DNA of 64,000 nt from Sulfurimonas crateris (GTDB taxonomy: Bacteria; Campylobacterota; Campylobacteria; Campylobacterales; Sulfurimonadaceae): positions 1-64,000 of the forward strand of contig CAMCYC010000003.1 in the NCBI GenBank assembly GCA_945883795.1, in the 5' to 3' direction. Position numbers and translations under genes: made by a program. The stretch's first letter is position 1; each line of letters begins with the position of its first letter. Shown in pieces: positions 3,709 through 63,345 of the stretch. Below the pieces are notes generated by a model. The model saw nothing but the letters and a program-made list of their open reading frames with translations, made no database searches and was not told the origin of the DNA.

Positions 3709-4047
3709 ATGGAAACTTTTATTATGTATGCTCTGGGCATTGGATTGAGTGTTTTTTTTCTTTATTTTGTGGGTATTTTAATTGCCCCTTATTCTCCAAA
3801 TCAGATTAAAAATGAACATTTTGAATGCGGTTTACCTGCAAGTAGTTCTACCCCTAAAAAGGCAAATTTTGGATTTTTTATGTTTGCTATCATGTTTATT
3901 GTAGCAGATATGACTGGTTTATTTTTTACACTTTTCGTGTATGCGCATGATATTCATTCACAATTTATTGCCGCTATTTTTGCGGTTATTATTGGGTTTG
4001 CAGTCACATTTTCTATGAAGGAATATAATTATGCTCAAAGTATTTGA
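3709..4047 (+). CDS. nuoA: NADH-quinone oxidoreductase subunit A
   Basis: Small 3-TM protein with FECGLPAS motif; first gene of nuo cluster; AAGGAGG ribosome-binding site just upstream. Confidence 0.93.
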   Translation: METFIMYALGIGLSVFFLYFVGILIAPYSPNQIKNEHFECGLPASSSTPKKANFGFFMFAIMFIVADMTGLFFTLFVYAHDIHSQFIAAIFAVIIGFAVTFSMKEYNYAQSI

Positions 4048-4504
4048 TTTTTTTGCCCATGCCAAAAGTGAAAGTCTTTGGATGGCGCACTTTTGTACTG
4101 GTTGTTGCTCGCTTGAGATGGCAGCGGCTATGGGACCTCGTTATGACTGGGAACGGTATGGTTTTTTGCCTACTCCTACACCTCGCCAAGCAGATATTCT
4201 TATTATTACGGGACTTGTCACCAAAAAGATGCTTCCAGCACTTTTACGCACTTATGCACAGATGCCTGAACCAAAATATGTTTTAGCCCTAGGTGCATGT
4301 TCGTTTGATGGCGGACCTTATAATGACTCTTTAGCAGTTATTAAAAACCCTACGGAGATACTTCCAGCAGATGTTTTTGTAGCAGGTTGCCCACCTAAAC
4401 CTGAAGCAATTATTAGTGGCATGGAAGAGATAAAGAAAAAGATGAAAGCTGGAATTCCTAGTGCAGCATCAGAGGGTGGACTTTGGAAGGAGATGAGATT
4501 TTAA
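4031..4504 (+). CDS. nuoB: NADH-quinone oxidoreductase subunit B
   Basis: CTGCCSLEMA, LGACSFDGGPY and VAGCPPKPEA motifs (N2 cluster ligands). Confidence 0.95.
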   Translation: MLKVFDFFAHAKSESLWMAHFCTGCCSLEMAAAMGPRYDWERYGFLPTPTPRQADILIITGLVTKKMLPALLRTYAQMPEPKYVLALGACSFDGGPYNDSLAVIKNPTEILPADVFVAGCPPKPEAIISGMEEIKKKMKAGIPSAASEGGLWKEMRF

Positions 4505-56940: not shown

Positions 56941-57489
56941 ATGGATATAGGTGAAATCCAAAGAATGGTTGAAGATGGTGGGATTGTCTTTTTAAGTTAT
57001 GGTGGTTTTTTGTCGCAGGCTCTTATATCTGCTATGACAGAAGCACTTGAAAAAGAGGCTGAATATAGTGATATTAGCATGAATGCATCGAATAATATTT
57101 TTACGGTGTTTATTGAGCTTTCTCAAAATATAATGAACTATTCTAAAAGTGAACAGGTGAATGACAAATCTTTAAAATCGCAAGGGCTTATTGTGGTTTC
57201 TAAAAGTGAGCGTGGTAATTATTATATTCACAGTCAAAATATTATTTCACTTCAAGACAAAAATAATATAGAACTAAAACTCATTGAGATTCAATCTCTA
57301 GATAAAGATGGCATTAAAAAACGCTATAGAGAATTGCGAAAAAGTGGTCAAAATACACATTCAAAAGGTGGGGGAATAGGATTTTATGAAATTGCAAAAC
57401 GATGTGATTCTATTGAGTATGAGTTCAAGCAGATTAATGAAGATAAATTTTATTTTCATCTTAAAACAACTATAACAATAGATAGATAG
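56941..57489 (+). CDS. SiaB-family protein kinase
   Basis: GGIVFLSYGGFLSQALISAMTEALE, IELSQNIMNYSK and GGGIGFYEIAKR motifs; followed by DUF1987/SiaC-like gene. Confidence 0.82.
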   Translation: MDIGEIQRMVEDGGIVFLSYGGFLSQALISAMTEALEKEAEYSDISMNASNNIFTVFIELSQNIMNYSKSEQVNDKSLKSQGLIVVSKSERGNYYIHSQNIISLQDKNNIELKLIEIQSLDKDGIKKRYRELRKSGQNTHSKGGGIGFYEIAKRCDSIEYEFKQINEDKFYFHLKTTITIDR

Positions 57490-57500
57490 GAGATGTCATA

Positions 57501-57875
57501 ATGGAAAACTTAAAATTAGAAGCGACAAAATATACACCAGAAATTAGTTTGGATGCAAGTGGAACGGTTTCTCTTACTGGAAAATCATATCCTGAGAATA
57601 CATTTGAATTTTATGCTCCTATGATGGCATGGCTAGAAGAATATTTTGCTGGAAATGCTGTAGAAAAAACTACGATAAATATGGAAATTATTTACTTTAA
57701 CTCGAGCAGTTCAAAGCTATTCTTTGACTTTTTTGACTTGCTTGAGGACAATCAAGAAGACCATAAAATTGAAATAAATTGGATTTTTGATAAAGAAAAT
57801 GAAAGTGCTCAGGAAGCTGGAGAAGATTTTATAGAAGATTTTGAAGCGCTCAATATTAACCTTGTTGCAAAGTAG
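57501..57875 (+). CDS. SiaC-family (DUF1987) regulatory phosphoprotein
   Basis: TKYTPEISLDASG...GKSYPENTFEFYAPMMAWLEEYF...IIYFNSSSSKLFFDFFDLLE. Confidence 0.87.
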   Translation: MENLKLEATKYTPEISLDASGTVSLTGKSYPENTFEFYAPMMAWLEEYFAGNAVEKTTINMEIIYFNSSSSKLFFDFFDLLEDNQEDHKIEINWIFDKENESAQEAGEDFIEDFEALNINLVAK

Positions 57876-57883
57876 AAAGTAAA

Positions 57884-58681
57884 GTGGAAGAGTACGAAAA
57901 TAAACTCATAGCAGAGATTGAAATACTAAGAGATAATTTTATTAAGACTACTGAAAAGCTTATTAAAGATGTTAAACGACAAGATAAAATTATGTTAAGA
58001 AGTGATAAACGCCAACAACAAGAATATGATGAATTGCAACGCAAATTTGATGAGGTGGCTATCTTGCAAAGAGAAATAGAAGATACACAAAGAGAAGTTG
58101 TTTTTACTATGGGTGCAATCGGTGAAAGTAGAAGCAAAGAAACGGGGAACCATGTCAGAAGAGTTGCACAGTATTCTAAAATATTTGCACTTCATTATGG
58201 TATGGATGAAAAAGAAGCTGAGATGCTAAAACAAGCTAGTCCTATGCATGACATAGGCAAAGTTGCTATTCCAGATGCTGTTTTAAATAAACCTGGTAAG
58301 TTTGACGAAGTTGAGAGAAAAATTATGGATACACATGCAGAACTTGGATATGAGATGCTAAAAATGTCAAATAGACCACTTTTAAAAATGGCAGCAACAG
58401 TTGCTTATGAACATCATGAAAAATGGAACGGAACAGGTTATCCTAATCAACTCAAAGGTGAAGAGATTCACATTTATGGTCGTATAACAGCTATGGCAGA
58501 TGTTTTTGATGCACTTGGAAGTGATAGAGTTTATAAAAAAAGTTGGGATGATGAGAAAATTTTTAGTTTTTTTAAAGAAGAAAGAGGGGAGCATTTTGAC
58601 CCTAAATTAGTAGATATTTTTTTTGAAAATCTAAATGAATTTTTAGCTGTTAGAGATAGTTTAAAAGATGTCTCGCTATGA
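57884..58681 (+). CDS. HD-GYP domain protein with N-terminal coiled coil (GTG start)
   Basis: MHDIGKVAIPDAVLNKPG and HHEKWNGTGYPNQLKGEEI motifs; predicted coiled coil ahead of HD-GYP. Confidence 0.9.
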   Translation: MEEYENKLIAEIEILRDNFIKTTEKLIKDVKRQDKIMLRSDKRQQQEYDELQRKFDEVAILQREIEDTQREVVFTMGAIGESRSKETGNHVRRVAQYSKIFALHYGMDEKEAEMLKQASPMHDIGKVAIPDAVLNKPGKFDEVERKIMDTHAELGYEMLKMSNRPLLKMAATVAYEHHEKWNGTGYPNQLKGEEIHIYGRITAMADVFDALGSDRVYKKSWDDEKIFSFFKEERGEHFDPKLVDIFFENLNEFLAVRDSLKDVSL

Positions 58682-60141
58682 TATATCAAGATGTAAAGCG
58701 TTTTTTAAAAGGTCATCTACAAAAGCCAGATGAAAATTATGTGTGGAGTGGACATGATAATTTTTTATTATTGAATTTTATTCAAAGTAGATATAGTGAT
58801 GAAGAGATAGAAAAAAATAGTTCTGAAATTCGTCAAGTTTTTAGAGATTTTTTTGAACCATCTGGCAGTGTCTTAGTCAGATTTAAATTAGATATAGGAA
58901 TTACATATAAAATATTGCCCTATCATATAAAACCAGAGAATAGCCGACATTTAAACGACATTATAGGAATCATTAAAAAAAATAGACGCTCAATTGAATA
59001 TCCCTATCATGGAAGAGATGACCAAATAGCTCTTTTAGGCAAAATTAGAAGACATATTAATGCTCAAATAATTGAGACAGATGAATCTGTCAATAAAAAT
59101 GAATTGGTGAGATATGCTATCAAAAAAGCTCTGGATTTAGATTCAAGAGATGTTGTAGTACAACTGAAAAGAAAATATATTGTCAAGCTATTTAAAAAGA
59201 ATGAATTACTTAGCTCTAAAGCTCAAGAATCACTCCCTAAAAGTGATGAAGAACTCCGTAATCCAGAAGAGTTGACAGGACATTATGAAGAGCTTATTCA
59301 AGATATAGATTTAGAAGAGTTTTTAGATAATGTTATGGCAGAGTTATTTGCAACAAAATTAAATTTTGATGTGATAACAAATAGTTATTATGAAAAAAAT
59401 GTTTTTATACTTATTCGGCATGGAATCGCAACAGAGTTACAACAATATGTTTCTGAAAATAAAGAGTATATCAAGGACTTTGCAGGATATATTTTTAAAA
59501 CTAATTTTACAAAAATACATGAACGGATAGCTATTGAAATATTAGAAAAAATTTCTATTAAAAGTCAGGTTGCTACAAAATTTCTTGAATATTATTCTGG
59601 GACTATTTATATTGAAGATGCTAAAAAGTATAGTACTCCAGAGATTAGTAGAGTAGATGGAAAAAGATGGAATGTGCCATCTATTATAGCTATTACAAAT
59701 ATGTGGTTACGCTCAAAAAAACAAAAAGCAAAATTTAAAGTACAACTAAAAAATCTTCTTCAAAGATATAACATTATAGCTGTAAACTTTGAATCAATGG
59801 ATGAGCAAAAAGAAAAATATGAGATAGAATTATTTGAAGAAGAAAATTTTGATATTGAAGGTCATGCTGATATTCAAATGAAACAAAATAATATTTTAGA
59901 ATCTCAGGCGACTGAATATGAAAATCTTAAAATGATTCAAGAGTTATCAGAAGAGCAGAATCAAAATGTACTTAAAAATATGAAAATAGAGTATTTAGAA
60001 ATGAGAAAGCAGAAACAATATTTAGAAGTTGAAATCAAAAATTTAAAAAATAATCTTGATATTAATAGAGCTTCTTTTCACTCTATTGTAGCTTCATTAG
60101 TCAAAGCTCTTACACAAAGAAAAAAACTTATAGAAGATTAA
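58678..60141 (+). CDS. Uncharacterised protein with C-terminal coiled coil (487 aa)
   Basis: Long clean ORF, ATGA overlap with the HD-GYP gene; no domain recognised; heptad-like C-terminal region. Confidence 0.75.
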   Translation: MIYQDVKRFLKGHLQKPDENYVWSGHDNFLLLNFIQSRYSDEEIEKNSSEIRQVFRDFFEPSGSVLVRFKLDIGITYKILPYHIKPENSRHLNDIIGIIKKNRRSIEYPYHGRDDQIALLGKIRRHINAQIIETDESVNKNELVRYAIKKALDLDSRDVVVQLKRKYIVKLFKKNELLSSKAQESLPKSDEELRNPEELTGHYEELIQDIDLEEFLDNVMAELFATKLNFDVITNSYYEKNVFILIRHGIATELQQYVSENKEYIKDFAGYIFKTNFTKIHERIAIEILEKISIKSQVATKFLEYYSGTIYIEDAKKYSTPEISRVDGKRWNVPSIIAITNMWLRSKKQKAKFKVQLKNLLQRYNIIAVNFESMDEQKEKYEIELFEEENFDIEGHADIQMKQNNILESQATEYENLKMIQELSEEQNQNVLKNMKIEYLEMRKQKQYLEVEIKNLKNNLDINRASFHSIVASLVKALTQRKKLIED

Positions 60142-60189
60142 TATAGGAAAAAAAGTTTTGAAATTTAATTATTTTGTATACTCAAATTT

Positions 60190-63100
60190 TTATATTTCAA
60201 ACCCAATAACAGTCATGTCATCGTTTCTATCATTATTTTTTATCATGTTTTCATATTCACTCATTTTATGCAAAAATACTTCTCGTTGTTCTGGCATTGG
60301 TTTGTAATAATGTCCTTCGATGATTTCATTAAATTTTTTCTTCCCAAATGGAAATCCTTTTTCTCCCCCATTTTGGTCTAAATAACCATCTGTTGAACAA
60401 TAAAACTTCATCCCATTTTCTACATGAATTATATGTTCTTTAAATTCAAAATTGGCATCTGATTTTTTATATCCTACAGAATGACGAGAACCTTTGAGTG
60501 TTTGAAGTTGATTGTTTTCGTCCACATAAAAAAGTGCTGTTTCAGCTCCAGAGAATTTAAGAATTTTTTCTTTTTTATTGTAATAAATTATCCCACCATC
60601 AAATCCTGCATTTGAGACAGAATCAATATTTTCTTGTTTGAGAAGATTTTTAATGCTTCTGTTAAATATACTTAGTATTTTTGCTGGACTAATCGTTTCA
60701 TCTTTATGTATATTTGCCATGAGTTGACGCTCTATTGCTTTTACTAGCATGGTCACAAATGCACCAGGAACGCCATGTCCTGTACAATCTATAATCATTA
60801 ATATAAGTTCATTTTCATTAAGCTCATGCATCAAATAAATATCGCCACCAACAATATCTTTTGGATTCCAAATTGTAAAATAATCTTGGAAAAAGTGTTC
60901 AAATATTTTATTGTCTGGGATGAGCGCACTTTGGATAAGGGCAGCGTATTCTATAGATTCTCGTGTGTGTTTATGAATAGCACGAATCTCATTTTCCATA
61001 TTTTTTTGTTTTGTTATATCTGCAACCATTCCAATATAAGCATCTACGCCTTGATAACCAATAGGAGTAACGGAAAGTAACGCTGTAAACTCTTTACCTT
61101 TGGAAGTTTTGAAATTTTCCTCCATGTTTTCAACTCTACCATATTTTTTTATAGCATCAACAATATGATAATGTTGCCCTTGAACGGTGTAGATGCTATC
61201 AATATCGCTTCCTATAATTTCATCAACTGTTTTTTCATATTGAATCTCTGCATATTTATTAGCGTAAAGAATTTTTCTCTCTTTTTTTGAAGTGATTAAA
61301 ACAGGTAATAAAATATTTGCAAGTATCTGTTCTACATCTTGTTTTGCTTTTTCTATCTCTGTGATATTTGTAAATATTGCAGCTTTGAGTCCATTTTTCC
61401 CTGGTAATTTTGCTGCAGTAACTGAAAAAATAAAATCTTTATTGCCTCTTGTTATCATAGCTTTATTGGCTGTTGAATATTTTCTTGATATAACATAATC
61501 TATCCAACTTCGCCCATCTATCGTAATTTGAAGATAGTCTTCTGGTGCATTGGTGTTAAAAGTATCACAAATACACTGAGCGTTATACTCTTTTTGAAAA
61601 TCAGCTATAGAATCGACTGCAAAAAAATCCAAAAATGCTTCGTTAACACTTAAAATAGATATATCATTCGTTGTGATAATAATCTGCTCTTGTGAATCAA
61701 GCAAAGCATTCAAAAAGAGTCTATTTTCTTTTATACTTTCTTCCATCTTTTTTTGTTCAGTAATATCAATTAAAACTCCATCAATCCAAGCTTCATCTCC
61801 ACTTGAGGACTTAATAGATTGTCCTTGACTTCTAACCCATGTAATCTCACCATTTTTTCTAATAACTCTATAATCAACTTGAAAATTTTTCCCTTGTGAA
61901 AATTGTTTTTGAATGATTTTACCAATAGGTTCTATATCATCTGGATACATGATGGTGGAGAAGGTCACTATTTTACTTTCCATAAAATCTGATGCAGGAT
62001 AACCCGTGATAGTTTCTATTTCATCACTCATGTAAATAATTGGCCACGCAGAATCATCTTTTACTCTATATATAGCACCTGGAACATTACTGACCATTGA
62101 TGCAAATTGTTGCTGTTGCTCTTGTAAATCTTTGGTTCGTTCATTGACTAAATTTTCAAGATTGCCACTTAATGCTTGCACCTCTTTTTGTGCTGTAATA
62201 TCTTGACTTATAGAGCTATATCCAATTAATTCATGTTTTGCATTGTACTGTGGAGAAACAACTATATCAGCCCAATAATAGTTACCATCTTTTCTAAGAT
62301 TTTTAACTTCCCCTCTCCAAATTTGACCTAATTTTATAGTTTTCCAAAGCTCTATAAATAGCTCTTTTTGTGTATCTGGATGTCTTAATATATTGTGTGA
62401 TTTTCCTGCTAGTTCCTCTTGATTGTATCCACTAATATGCGTAAAAGCTTCACTTACTTGCGTTATTTTACCGTTTAAATCTGTTCTGGTAAAAATAACA
62501 TTTTTATTAATTGTAATGAGTAAAATTTCAAGTTCATTTTTTTGTTCTTGGATATCTGCAGTTTTAAGTTTTATTGTTTCATTGAGTGTTTGCGTATAAT
62601 TTTCTAATTTTATTTTTTGTGCTTTTATTGTTTCTATCATTTTATAAAAACCATCGAAGAGTGCTTGAAATTCATCGTTACTTGTAAAATTTATGGTTAC
62701 ATCATAATTTCCATTTTCTCGTATTGTATCCATAGCACCTTTGAGGCTAAAAATAGGGAGTGTAAATATATTTTGTAATTTAAATGCTAAAAATACGATA
62801 ATCAATAAAATAAAAATTGATGTGAGTAGTTGCATAATAAACTGTGTCTTTAACATAGTGTGTATGCTATTTGTGTTTGAAATAATAACAAAAGAGGCTA
62901 AATAATCATTTTGTAAATATATTGGTTTACTAACAATCACATTGTAAAAATCATGAAATTTGATAGTTGTTTTTATATCATTTTTATCATACAAAGAAGA
63001 TATAGTTTTACTTATCTCATTTTCATCAACTCCATCTTTTAGATAAAAAGCAAAAGCAGTATTCTTATCTTTTAATATATAACCAGCCTCAATATCTGGA

Positions 63101-63345
63101 TTCAATTTAAGCGCTGAGAGGATTGATTTTGCACTTTCAGAATCATCAAATTCCAAAGAGGCACTTAAATTTTCCCCCATGATACTTACCGTTTGAGATA
63201 AAACTTTCAATCCATTGTTTTTATTTTGATTATATGTGTACCAAAATAAAACTGCTGAAGACAATACAATAGCGATTAATGCACTCAGACTAAGAATGAA
63301 CACTAATTTAAGACGGATAGACCTGAATTTTTTGTTATTTTGCAC
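60190..63345 (-). CDS. Membrane multi-PAS sensor with C-terminal SpoIIE/PP2C-type serine phosphatase
   Basis: Two TMs, HAMP-like segment, PAS motifs (SHNILRHPDTQKE, YYWADIVVSPQY), C-terminal DIVGGDIYLM...DCTGHGVPGAFVTML and NDDMTVIGFEI. Confidence 0.9.
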   Translation of the reverse strand: MQNNKKFRSIRLKLVFILSLSALIAIVLSSAVLFWYTYNQNKNNGLKVLSQTVSIMGENLSASLEFDDSESAKSILSALKLNPDIEAGYILKDKNTAFAFYLKDGVDENEISKTISSLYDKNDIKTTIKFHDFYNVIVSKPIYLQNDYLASFVIISNTNSIHTMLKTQFIMQLLTSIFILLIIVFLAFKLQNIFTLPIFSLKGAMDTIRENGNYDVTINFTSNDEFQALFDGFYKMIETIKAQKIKLENYTQTLNETIKLKTADIQEQKNELEILLITINKNVIFTRTDLNGKITQVSEAFTHISGYNQEELAGKSHNILRHPDTQKELFIELWKTIKLGQIWRGEVKNLRKDGNYYWADIVVSPQYNAKHELIGYSSISQDITAQKEVQALSGNLENLVNERTKDLQEQQQQFASMVSNVPGAIYRVKDDSAWPIIYMSDEIETITGYPASDFMESKIVTFSTIMYPDDIEPIGKIIQKQFSQGKNFQVDYRVIRKNGEITWVRSQGQSIKSSSGDEAWIDGVLIDITEQKKMEESIKENRLFLNALLDSQEQIIITTNDISILSVNEAFLDFFAVDSIADFQKEYNAQCICDTFNTNAPEDYLQITIDGRSWIDYVISRKYSTANKAMITRGNKDFIFSVTAAKLPGKNGLKAAIFTNITEIEKAKQDVEQILANILLPVLITSKKERKILYANKYAEIQYEKTVDEIIGSDIDSIYTVQGQHYHIVDAIKKYGRVENMEENFKTSKGKEFTALLSVTPIGYQGVDAYIGMVADITKQKNMENEIRAIHKHTRESIEYAALIQSALIPDNKIFEHFFQDYFTIWNPKDIVGGDIYLMHELNENELILMIIDCTGHGVPGAFVTMLVKAIERQLMANIHKDETISPAKILSIFNRSIKNLLKQENIDSVSNAGFDGGIIYYNKKEKILKFSGAETALFYVDENNQLQTLKGSRHSVGYKKSDANFEFKEHIIHVENGMKFYCSTDGYLDQNGGEKGFPFGKKKFNEIIEGHYYKPMPEQREVFLHKMSEYENMIKNNDRNDDMTVIGFEI

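Follow-up and report, generated by a model that had tools for sequence, protein, structure and literature searches.

The window analysed here, a stretch of 64,000 nucleotides from Sulfurimonas crateris (GenBank assembly GCA_945883795.1, contig CAMCYC010000003.1, positions 1 to 64,000 of the forward strand), holds between positions 56941 and 63345 a partner switch of the SiaABC type whose output is likely to be an HD-GYP phosphodiesterase acting on cyclic di-GMP (c-di-GMP). Through this enzyme, SiaABC very probably controls c-di-GMP breakdown in this organism, a prediction whose basis is sequence: the components, their linkage, the intact catalytic residues and a docking motif that is specific to SiaC-linked proteins. 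The genes and features of the locus are as follows.

56941..57489, + strand: SiaB-family (RsbW-like) protein kinase, 182 amino acids (aa) (NF038262, 136 bits; PF19788, 109 bits)
57501..57875, + strand: SiaC/DUF1987 phospho-switch protein, 124 aa (PF09345, 132 bits; SiaC structure 6kko in the PDB, E=3e-18)
57884..58681, + strand: predicted HD-GYP phosphodiesterase with N-terminal stalk, 265 aa, GTG start (PF13487, 112 bits)
57887..58135, + strand: single long stalk helix, residues 2-84 of the HD-GYP protein (AlphaFold2 model, predicted local distance difference test (pLDDT) 87)
57977..58015, + strand: putative SiaC-docking motif R32-QDKIMLR-S40-D41-K42-R43-Q44 of the HD-GYP protein (equivalent to SiaD R74-Q86)
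58127..58609, + strand: HD-GYP catalytic domain, residues 82-242 (PF13487 match; PmGH alignment)
58678..60141, + strand: 487-aa protein (P4), alpha/beta part and C-terminal coiled coil of ~145 residues (AlphaFold2, pLDDT 83)
60190..63345, - strand: SiaA-type membrane phosphatase with CHASE8-like sensor, HAMP, PAS domains and SpoIIE/PP2C domain (domain matches, PF07228)
60193..61005, - strand: SiaA-like PP2C catalytic part, residues 781-1051 (6k4e, E=4e-53)

Components of the switch and of its candidate output

The four forward-strand genes form a tight operon, in which the first two gaps measure 11 and 8 bp and the last two genes share 4 bp, and the phosphatase gene lies 48 bp downstream and is convergent with it. 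An earlier note, made from the letters of this DNA, had described a SiaB-like, a SiaC-like, an HD-GYP and an unknown protein in one operon opposite a SpoIIE-type phosphatase, and family matches confirm these five genes. Pseudomonas aeruginosa SiaABCD (PA0172-PA0169) likewise comprises a PP2C phosphatase, the SiaB kinase, the SiaC switch and an effector with an N-terminal SiaC-binding stalk. The present system differs in that an HD-GYP domain takes the place of the SiaD GGDEF domain, in the convergent rather than operon-leading phosphatase gene, and in the extra 487-aa protein.

The kinase retains an N-box (FIELSQN, residues 57-63) and a G-box (KGGGIGF, residues 142-148), and its NF038262 score of 136 bits compares with a cut-off of 85. 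SiaC scores far over the PF09345 cut-off. Both the kinase and the phosphatase fall under the cut-offs of the narrow, Pseudomonas-based SiaB and SiaA equivalog models, as expected of distant members. In the phosphatase, CHASE8-like, HAMP and PAS domains in a membrane N-terminal part stand ahead of the PF07228 domain. Over its C-terminal 267 aa the protein resembles the solved SiaA phosphatase of P. aeruginosa (6k4e, E=4e-53), and the second-best PDB sequence follows at 6e-4. The metal aspartates are retained together with the GGE-GF-FG loop, which aligns with the loop of SiaA containing F612, thought to dock SiaC (PMC7647112). SiaC residues N67-S68-S69 (bases 57699-57707; YFNSSSSK aligned with YLNTSSIK) correspond to the P. 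aeruginosa phosphosite N67-T68-S69. By analogy, SiaC would be phosphorylated by the kinase in the SiaB role and dephosphorylated by the phosphatase in the SiaA role, with Ser68 as the probable site.

Among solved structures, the closest to the HD-GYP protein is PmGH of Persephonella marina (4mcw, 4mdz), aligned across 206 residues at E=1.6e-64; PmGH is a c-di-GMP enzyme with a trinuclear iron site. Both motifs reported in the earlier note are present (HDIGK, residues 122-126; HHEKWNGTGYP, residues 177-187), and E86, H90, H122, D123, H151, H177, H178 and D206 align with the metal ligands of PmGH. All are kept, and the protein is predicted to be active. It shares with PmGH and other HD-GYP phosphodiesterases the HD-GYP domain and every ligand of the trinuclear metal site; its input differs, being a stalk alone, to which a partner protein would bind, where PmGH carries an N-terminal sensory domain (GAF). 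The genome (G000) has 15 HD_5 and 35 GGDEF matches, and the latter make it probable that c-di-GMP is in use.

A putative SiaC-docking motif in the HD-GYP stalk

In the SiaC-SiaD crystal structure, SiaC contacts SiaD residues R74, K77, V78, R80, I81, S82, D83, R84, Y85, Q86, M88, R90 and D91, SiaC T68 bonds S82 and Q86, and phosphorylation blocks binding (PMC8457831). HD-GYP residues R32, K35, I36, S40, D41, K42 and Q44 align without gaps with SiaD R74, K77, V78, S82, D83, R84 and Q86. This motif extends the account given in the earlier note and offers specific grounds for expecting SiaC to bind the HD-GYP protein.

A phmmer search of the PDB with the single coil did not find SiaD; it was recovered by a profile alone, built from nine coils of SiaC-neighbour proteins with SiaD left out. 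Against 177,635 PDB sequences this stalk profile ranks SiaD (7e6g_A) first at E=2e-4, followed by a designed coil at 0.07. The proximal SiaD motif contributes 21.1 bits to the match and the distal motif, in register, 2.9 bits. Conservation was compared in 59 distinct HD-GYP stalks and in 34 stalks of other proteins: the positions of R74, K77, V78, S82, D83 and Q86 rank with the most conserved, and that of D83 does not vary in either group. Entropy is 0.84 bits at SiaC-contact columns vs 1.73 at other helix columns in HD-GYP stalks (p=0.001), and 1.57 vs 2.23 bits in the other stalks (p=0.02), figures that are flattered to some extent, since part of the motif served to anchor the rows.

We scanned genome contigs for SiaC and took the best 80 of 275 loci, a sample biased to SiaC proteins like that of the window, as the query was the closer SiaC set, and biased too in its coverage of Pseudomonadota. 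A SiaC open reading frame (ORF) was obtained at 76 loci, and in 67 of them a stalk gene lies no more than five ORFs away; at least one HD-GYP stalk protein is present in 50 of these, and in 57 of 74 the stalk gene directly follows SiaC. Of 111 stalk ORFs, 81 contain the motif in its strict form, against 0 of the 1,324 other ORFs at the same loci. With SiaD ranked first in the PDB, this led us to reject a chance likeness between coiled coils. Loci L129, L137 and L153 show no stalk gene near SiaC.

Specificity is also seen within the genome, where the stalk profile gives E=2e-20 for the SiaC-linked HD-GYP protein and 0.016 for the next match, on C10; the latter, an unrelated secreted-type protein, was taken as noise. 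The motif was not found in other HD or GGDEF proteins when 45 HD and GGDEF loci of this genome were scanned. A GGDEF protein elsewhere in the genome, which the earlier note had considered as a rival partner, was rejected as the true SiaC target, since the profile finds the HD-GYP protein alone and none of the GGDEF proteins scanned carries the motif. As the sole credible stalk match, the HD-GYP protein speaks against a hidden SiaD. Among 397 Campylobacterota genomes SiaC is over the cut-off in 21 and the stalk profile in 20, with 17 in common; the stalk helix is thus present in 17 of 21 SiaC genomes vs 3 of 376 others (Fisher p=2e-23; the three are marginal, E~1e-4).

Proposed mechanism and its rivals

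We propose that the membrane phosphatase senses a periplasmic or PAS-dependent signal and would then dephosphorylate SiaC at Ser68, the kinase acting to rephosphorylate it. Unphosphorylated SiaC, and probably this form only, would dock on the coiled-coil stalk of the HD-GYP protein via the motif that P. aeruginosa SiaC uses to grip the dimeric stalk of SiaD. By analogy with SiaD, docking would most likely stabilise the active HD-GYP dimer and switch c-di-GMP hydrolysis on, and c-di-GMP would then fall when the phosphatase is active, the reverse of what happens in Pseudomonas. The logic of the system would be inverted only if SiaC binding activates the HD-GYP enzyme, and it is towards activation that we lean. 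The AlphaFold model, in which a continuous helix (residues 2-84) runs into the catalytic domain, is compatible with control of the dimer via the stalk.

Several observations weigh against the HD-GYP protein as the output of SiaC. The phosphosite residue is Ser68 rather than Thr68, and SiaC differs at some SiaD-contact positions (R103->S, L107->A, I71->S). The HD-GYP stalk carries one docking motif where SiaD has two, and the stoichiometry or polarity may therefore differ; by the pattern used, a second copy (~32 residues apart in SiaD) is absent from all stalk proteins in the set. At L141 (8384-9163), a SiaC-adjacent HD-GYP protein has a degenerate motif and is otherwise conserved. The genome also holds a second SiaA-SiaB-SiaC set (L001/L202, contig C94, SiaC 3818-4201) with no recognisable stalk partner on its 5.6-kb contig, which may share the HD-GYP protein or use a target that we do not recognise. 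Finally, the co-occurrence counts from the 397 Campylobacterota genomes partly restate linkage because the profile was trained on SiaC-adjacent proteins.

The strongest rival concerns polarity. SiaC might dock on the HD-GYP protein and inhibit it, holding a non-catalytic state, so that an active phosphatase raises c-di-GMP as in Pseudomonas, here by blocked breakdown. This has an appreciable though lesser probability, as it shares the same docking evidence, the sequence does not fix the polarity, and one motif instead of two could alter the dimer geometry. Against inhibition, SiaC stabilises the SiaD stalk dimer and activates SiaD (PMC8457831), and the HD-GYP stalk is likewise N-terminal and continues as a helix into the catalytic domain.

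It is unlikely that the HD-GYP protein is no SiaC target at all, the coil likeness being generic and the real targets lying elsewhere, such as the 487-aa protein or a general target of the anti-sigma type. The 487-aa protein adjoins SiaC in some loci and at L113 and L166 directly follows it, with no HD-GYP gene between. However, the ORFs that lack the motif include other coiled coils, SiaD outranks both designed and natural coiled coils in the PDB, and the conserved columns are the SiaC contacts. Moreover, the 487-aa family also stands beside a glycyl-tRNA-synthetase-beta-like gene (glyS) in genomes of the same genus, two of which (G287 one of them) gave no SiaC when searched. An HD-GYP protein that cleaves another substrate (e.g., cyclic GMP-AMP (cGAMP) or pGpG), which would place the switch outside c-di-GMP signalling, is less probable still: other dinucleotide specificities occur in some HD-GYP enzymes, and the relative 5z7c is annotated as a 3'3'-cGAMP-specific phosphodiesterase, but PmGH is by far the closest solved relative (E=1.6e-64 vs 4e-39), its metal ligands are all kept, and the 35 GGDEF matches argue for c-di-GMP.

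The 487-aa protein, which may be a target or an accessory of the switch, has no Pfam, NCBIfam or PHROG match, and its AlphaFold2 model no PDB fold match at E<=0.001. The earlier note had called it an unknown coiled-coil protein; the coiled coil is present, and the protein is better described as a member of an alpha/beta family whose C-terminal part is a long coiled coil. The family occurs in a minority of SiaC loci (e.g., L095, L096, L113, L125, L127, L141, L151 and L166), usually one or two genes from SiaC, and has paralogues elsewhere in this genome. Its members (window 58678-60141; L083, L084, L073-L078) are 400-510 aa long, with up to three copies per genome.

Spread of the switch and other candidate outputs on the stalk

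The order SiaB-SiaC-HD-GYP is the commonest arrangement that we found in Campylobacterota, and it recurs in several other lineages, including gammaproteobacteria and SAR324. Loci that encode a stalk HD-GYP protein come from records titled, among others, Sulfurimonas, Sulfurospirillum cavolei, Arcobacteraceae, Marinobacterium, Vibrio, Pseudoalteromonas, Thiomicrospira and SAR324. The HD-GYP protein thus keeps its catalytic residues and is SiaC-linked in many relatives, contrary to the inactive and unlinked HD-GYP that the earlier note had envisaged as a possible objection. That note had proposed a Sia switch rewired to a c-di-GMP-degrading enzyme: the docking motif upholds the link, and the idea of a local, independent rewiring falls away because the HD-GYP form is widespread across lineages. 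A tree of SiaC (96 rows, 126 columns) is poorly resolved and needs several partner changes (22 for the HD group, at least 6 forced by starred branches). SiaC is also found on plasmids (18 records).

Other domains are borne by the same helix, on proteins whose genes adjoin SiaC or share a genome with it. Loci from Mariprofundaceae, Nitrospirae and Magnetobacterium have stalk-kinases in place of the stalk HD-GYP protein, and Pfam scans of SiaC-neighbour stalk proteins find a histidine-kinase ATPase, either by itself or combined with CheX or with receiver plus Hpt domains, as well as a degenerate GGDEF domain. The combination of stalk, histidine-kinase-type ATPase and C-terminal CheX (L054 5066-7027, L092 2844-4898) is unusual. 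At L057 (682-1683, E=1e-27), divergent from siaA, and also at L059 (1926-2927), the stalk is joined to a class III adenylate/guanylate cyclase, possibly an enzyme of cyclic AMP (cAMP) or cyclic GMP (cGMP) synthesis under partner-switch control. L050/L161 encode a stalk-GGDEF protein and a 77-aa protein consisting of stalk only; the latter, a near-bare stalk (L050 9101-9334) between the stalk-GGDEF and stalk-kinase genes, could be a decoy or a SiaC buffer. In genome G210, a SiaC-unlinked stalk protein with a PP2C/SpoIIE-like domain, assigned by eye, lies beside a short STAS-like gene (L203 6850-7698), and a cascade of two partner switches is possible there.

The presence of one helix on many output domains suggests a general SiaC plug. 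We hold it reasonably probable that the SiaC-docking stalk is a portable helical plug of ~20 residues on unrelated outputs (HD-GYP, GGDEF, histidine kinase with or without receiver, Hpt or CheX, class III cyclase, PP2C), and that SiaABC is a general Ser/Thr partner-switch input able to drive the making or the breakdown of c-di-GMP, phosphorylation in two-component systems and probably cAMP/cGMP synthesis. Two other systems, HsbRAD-HptB of P. aeruginosa and BgrSTUWV of Sinorhizobium meliloti, also use a phospho-switch protein of STAS-like fold to modulate a c-di-GMP enzyme (PMC8457831); they differ in that their targets are diguanylate cyclases and their STAS proteins belong to another family. 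DUF1987 proteins have been predicted to modulate adjacent proteins (PMC8457831). In the literature searched, which excluded subscription papers and preprints, DUF1987 was found solely in that structure paper, no paper linking SiaC with HD-GYP was found, and SiaABC has been studied so far only as the activator of one diguanylate cyclase in Pseudomonas.

The motif predicts the partner of SiaC from sequence, and the substitutions S40A and Q44A should weaken or uncouple docking. Should the motif prove genuine, many marine bacteria and sulfur-oxidising Campylobacterota would have their c-di-GMP breakdown under this switch, which would govern further outputs in other organisms. One partner-switch protein would then control enzymes of opposite activity via one common docking helix.

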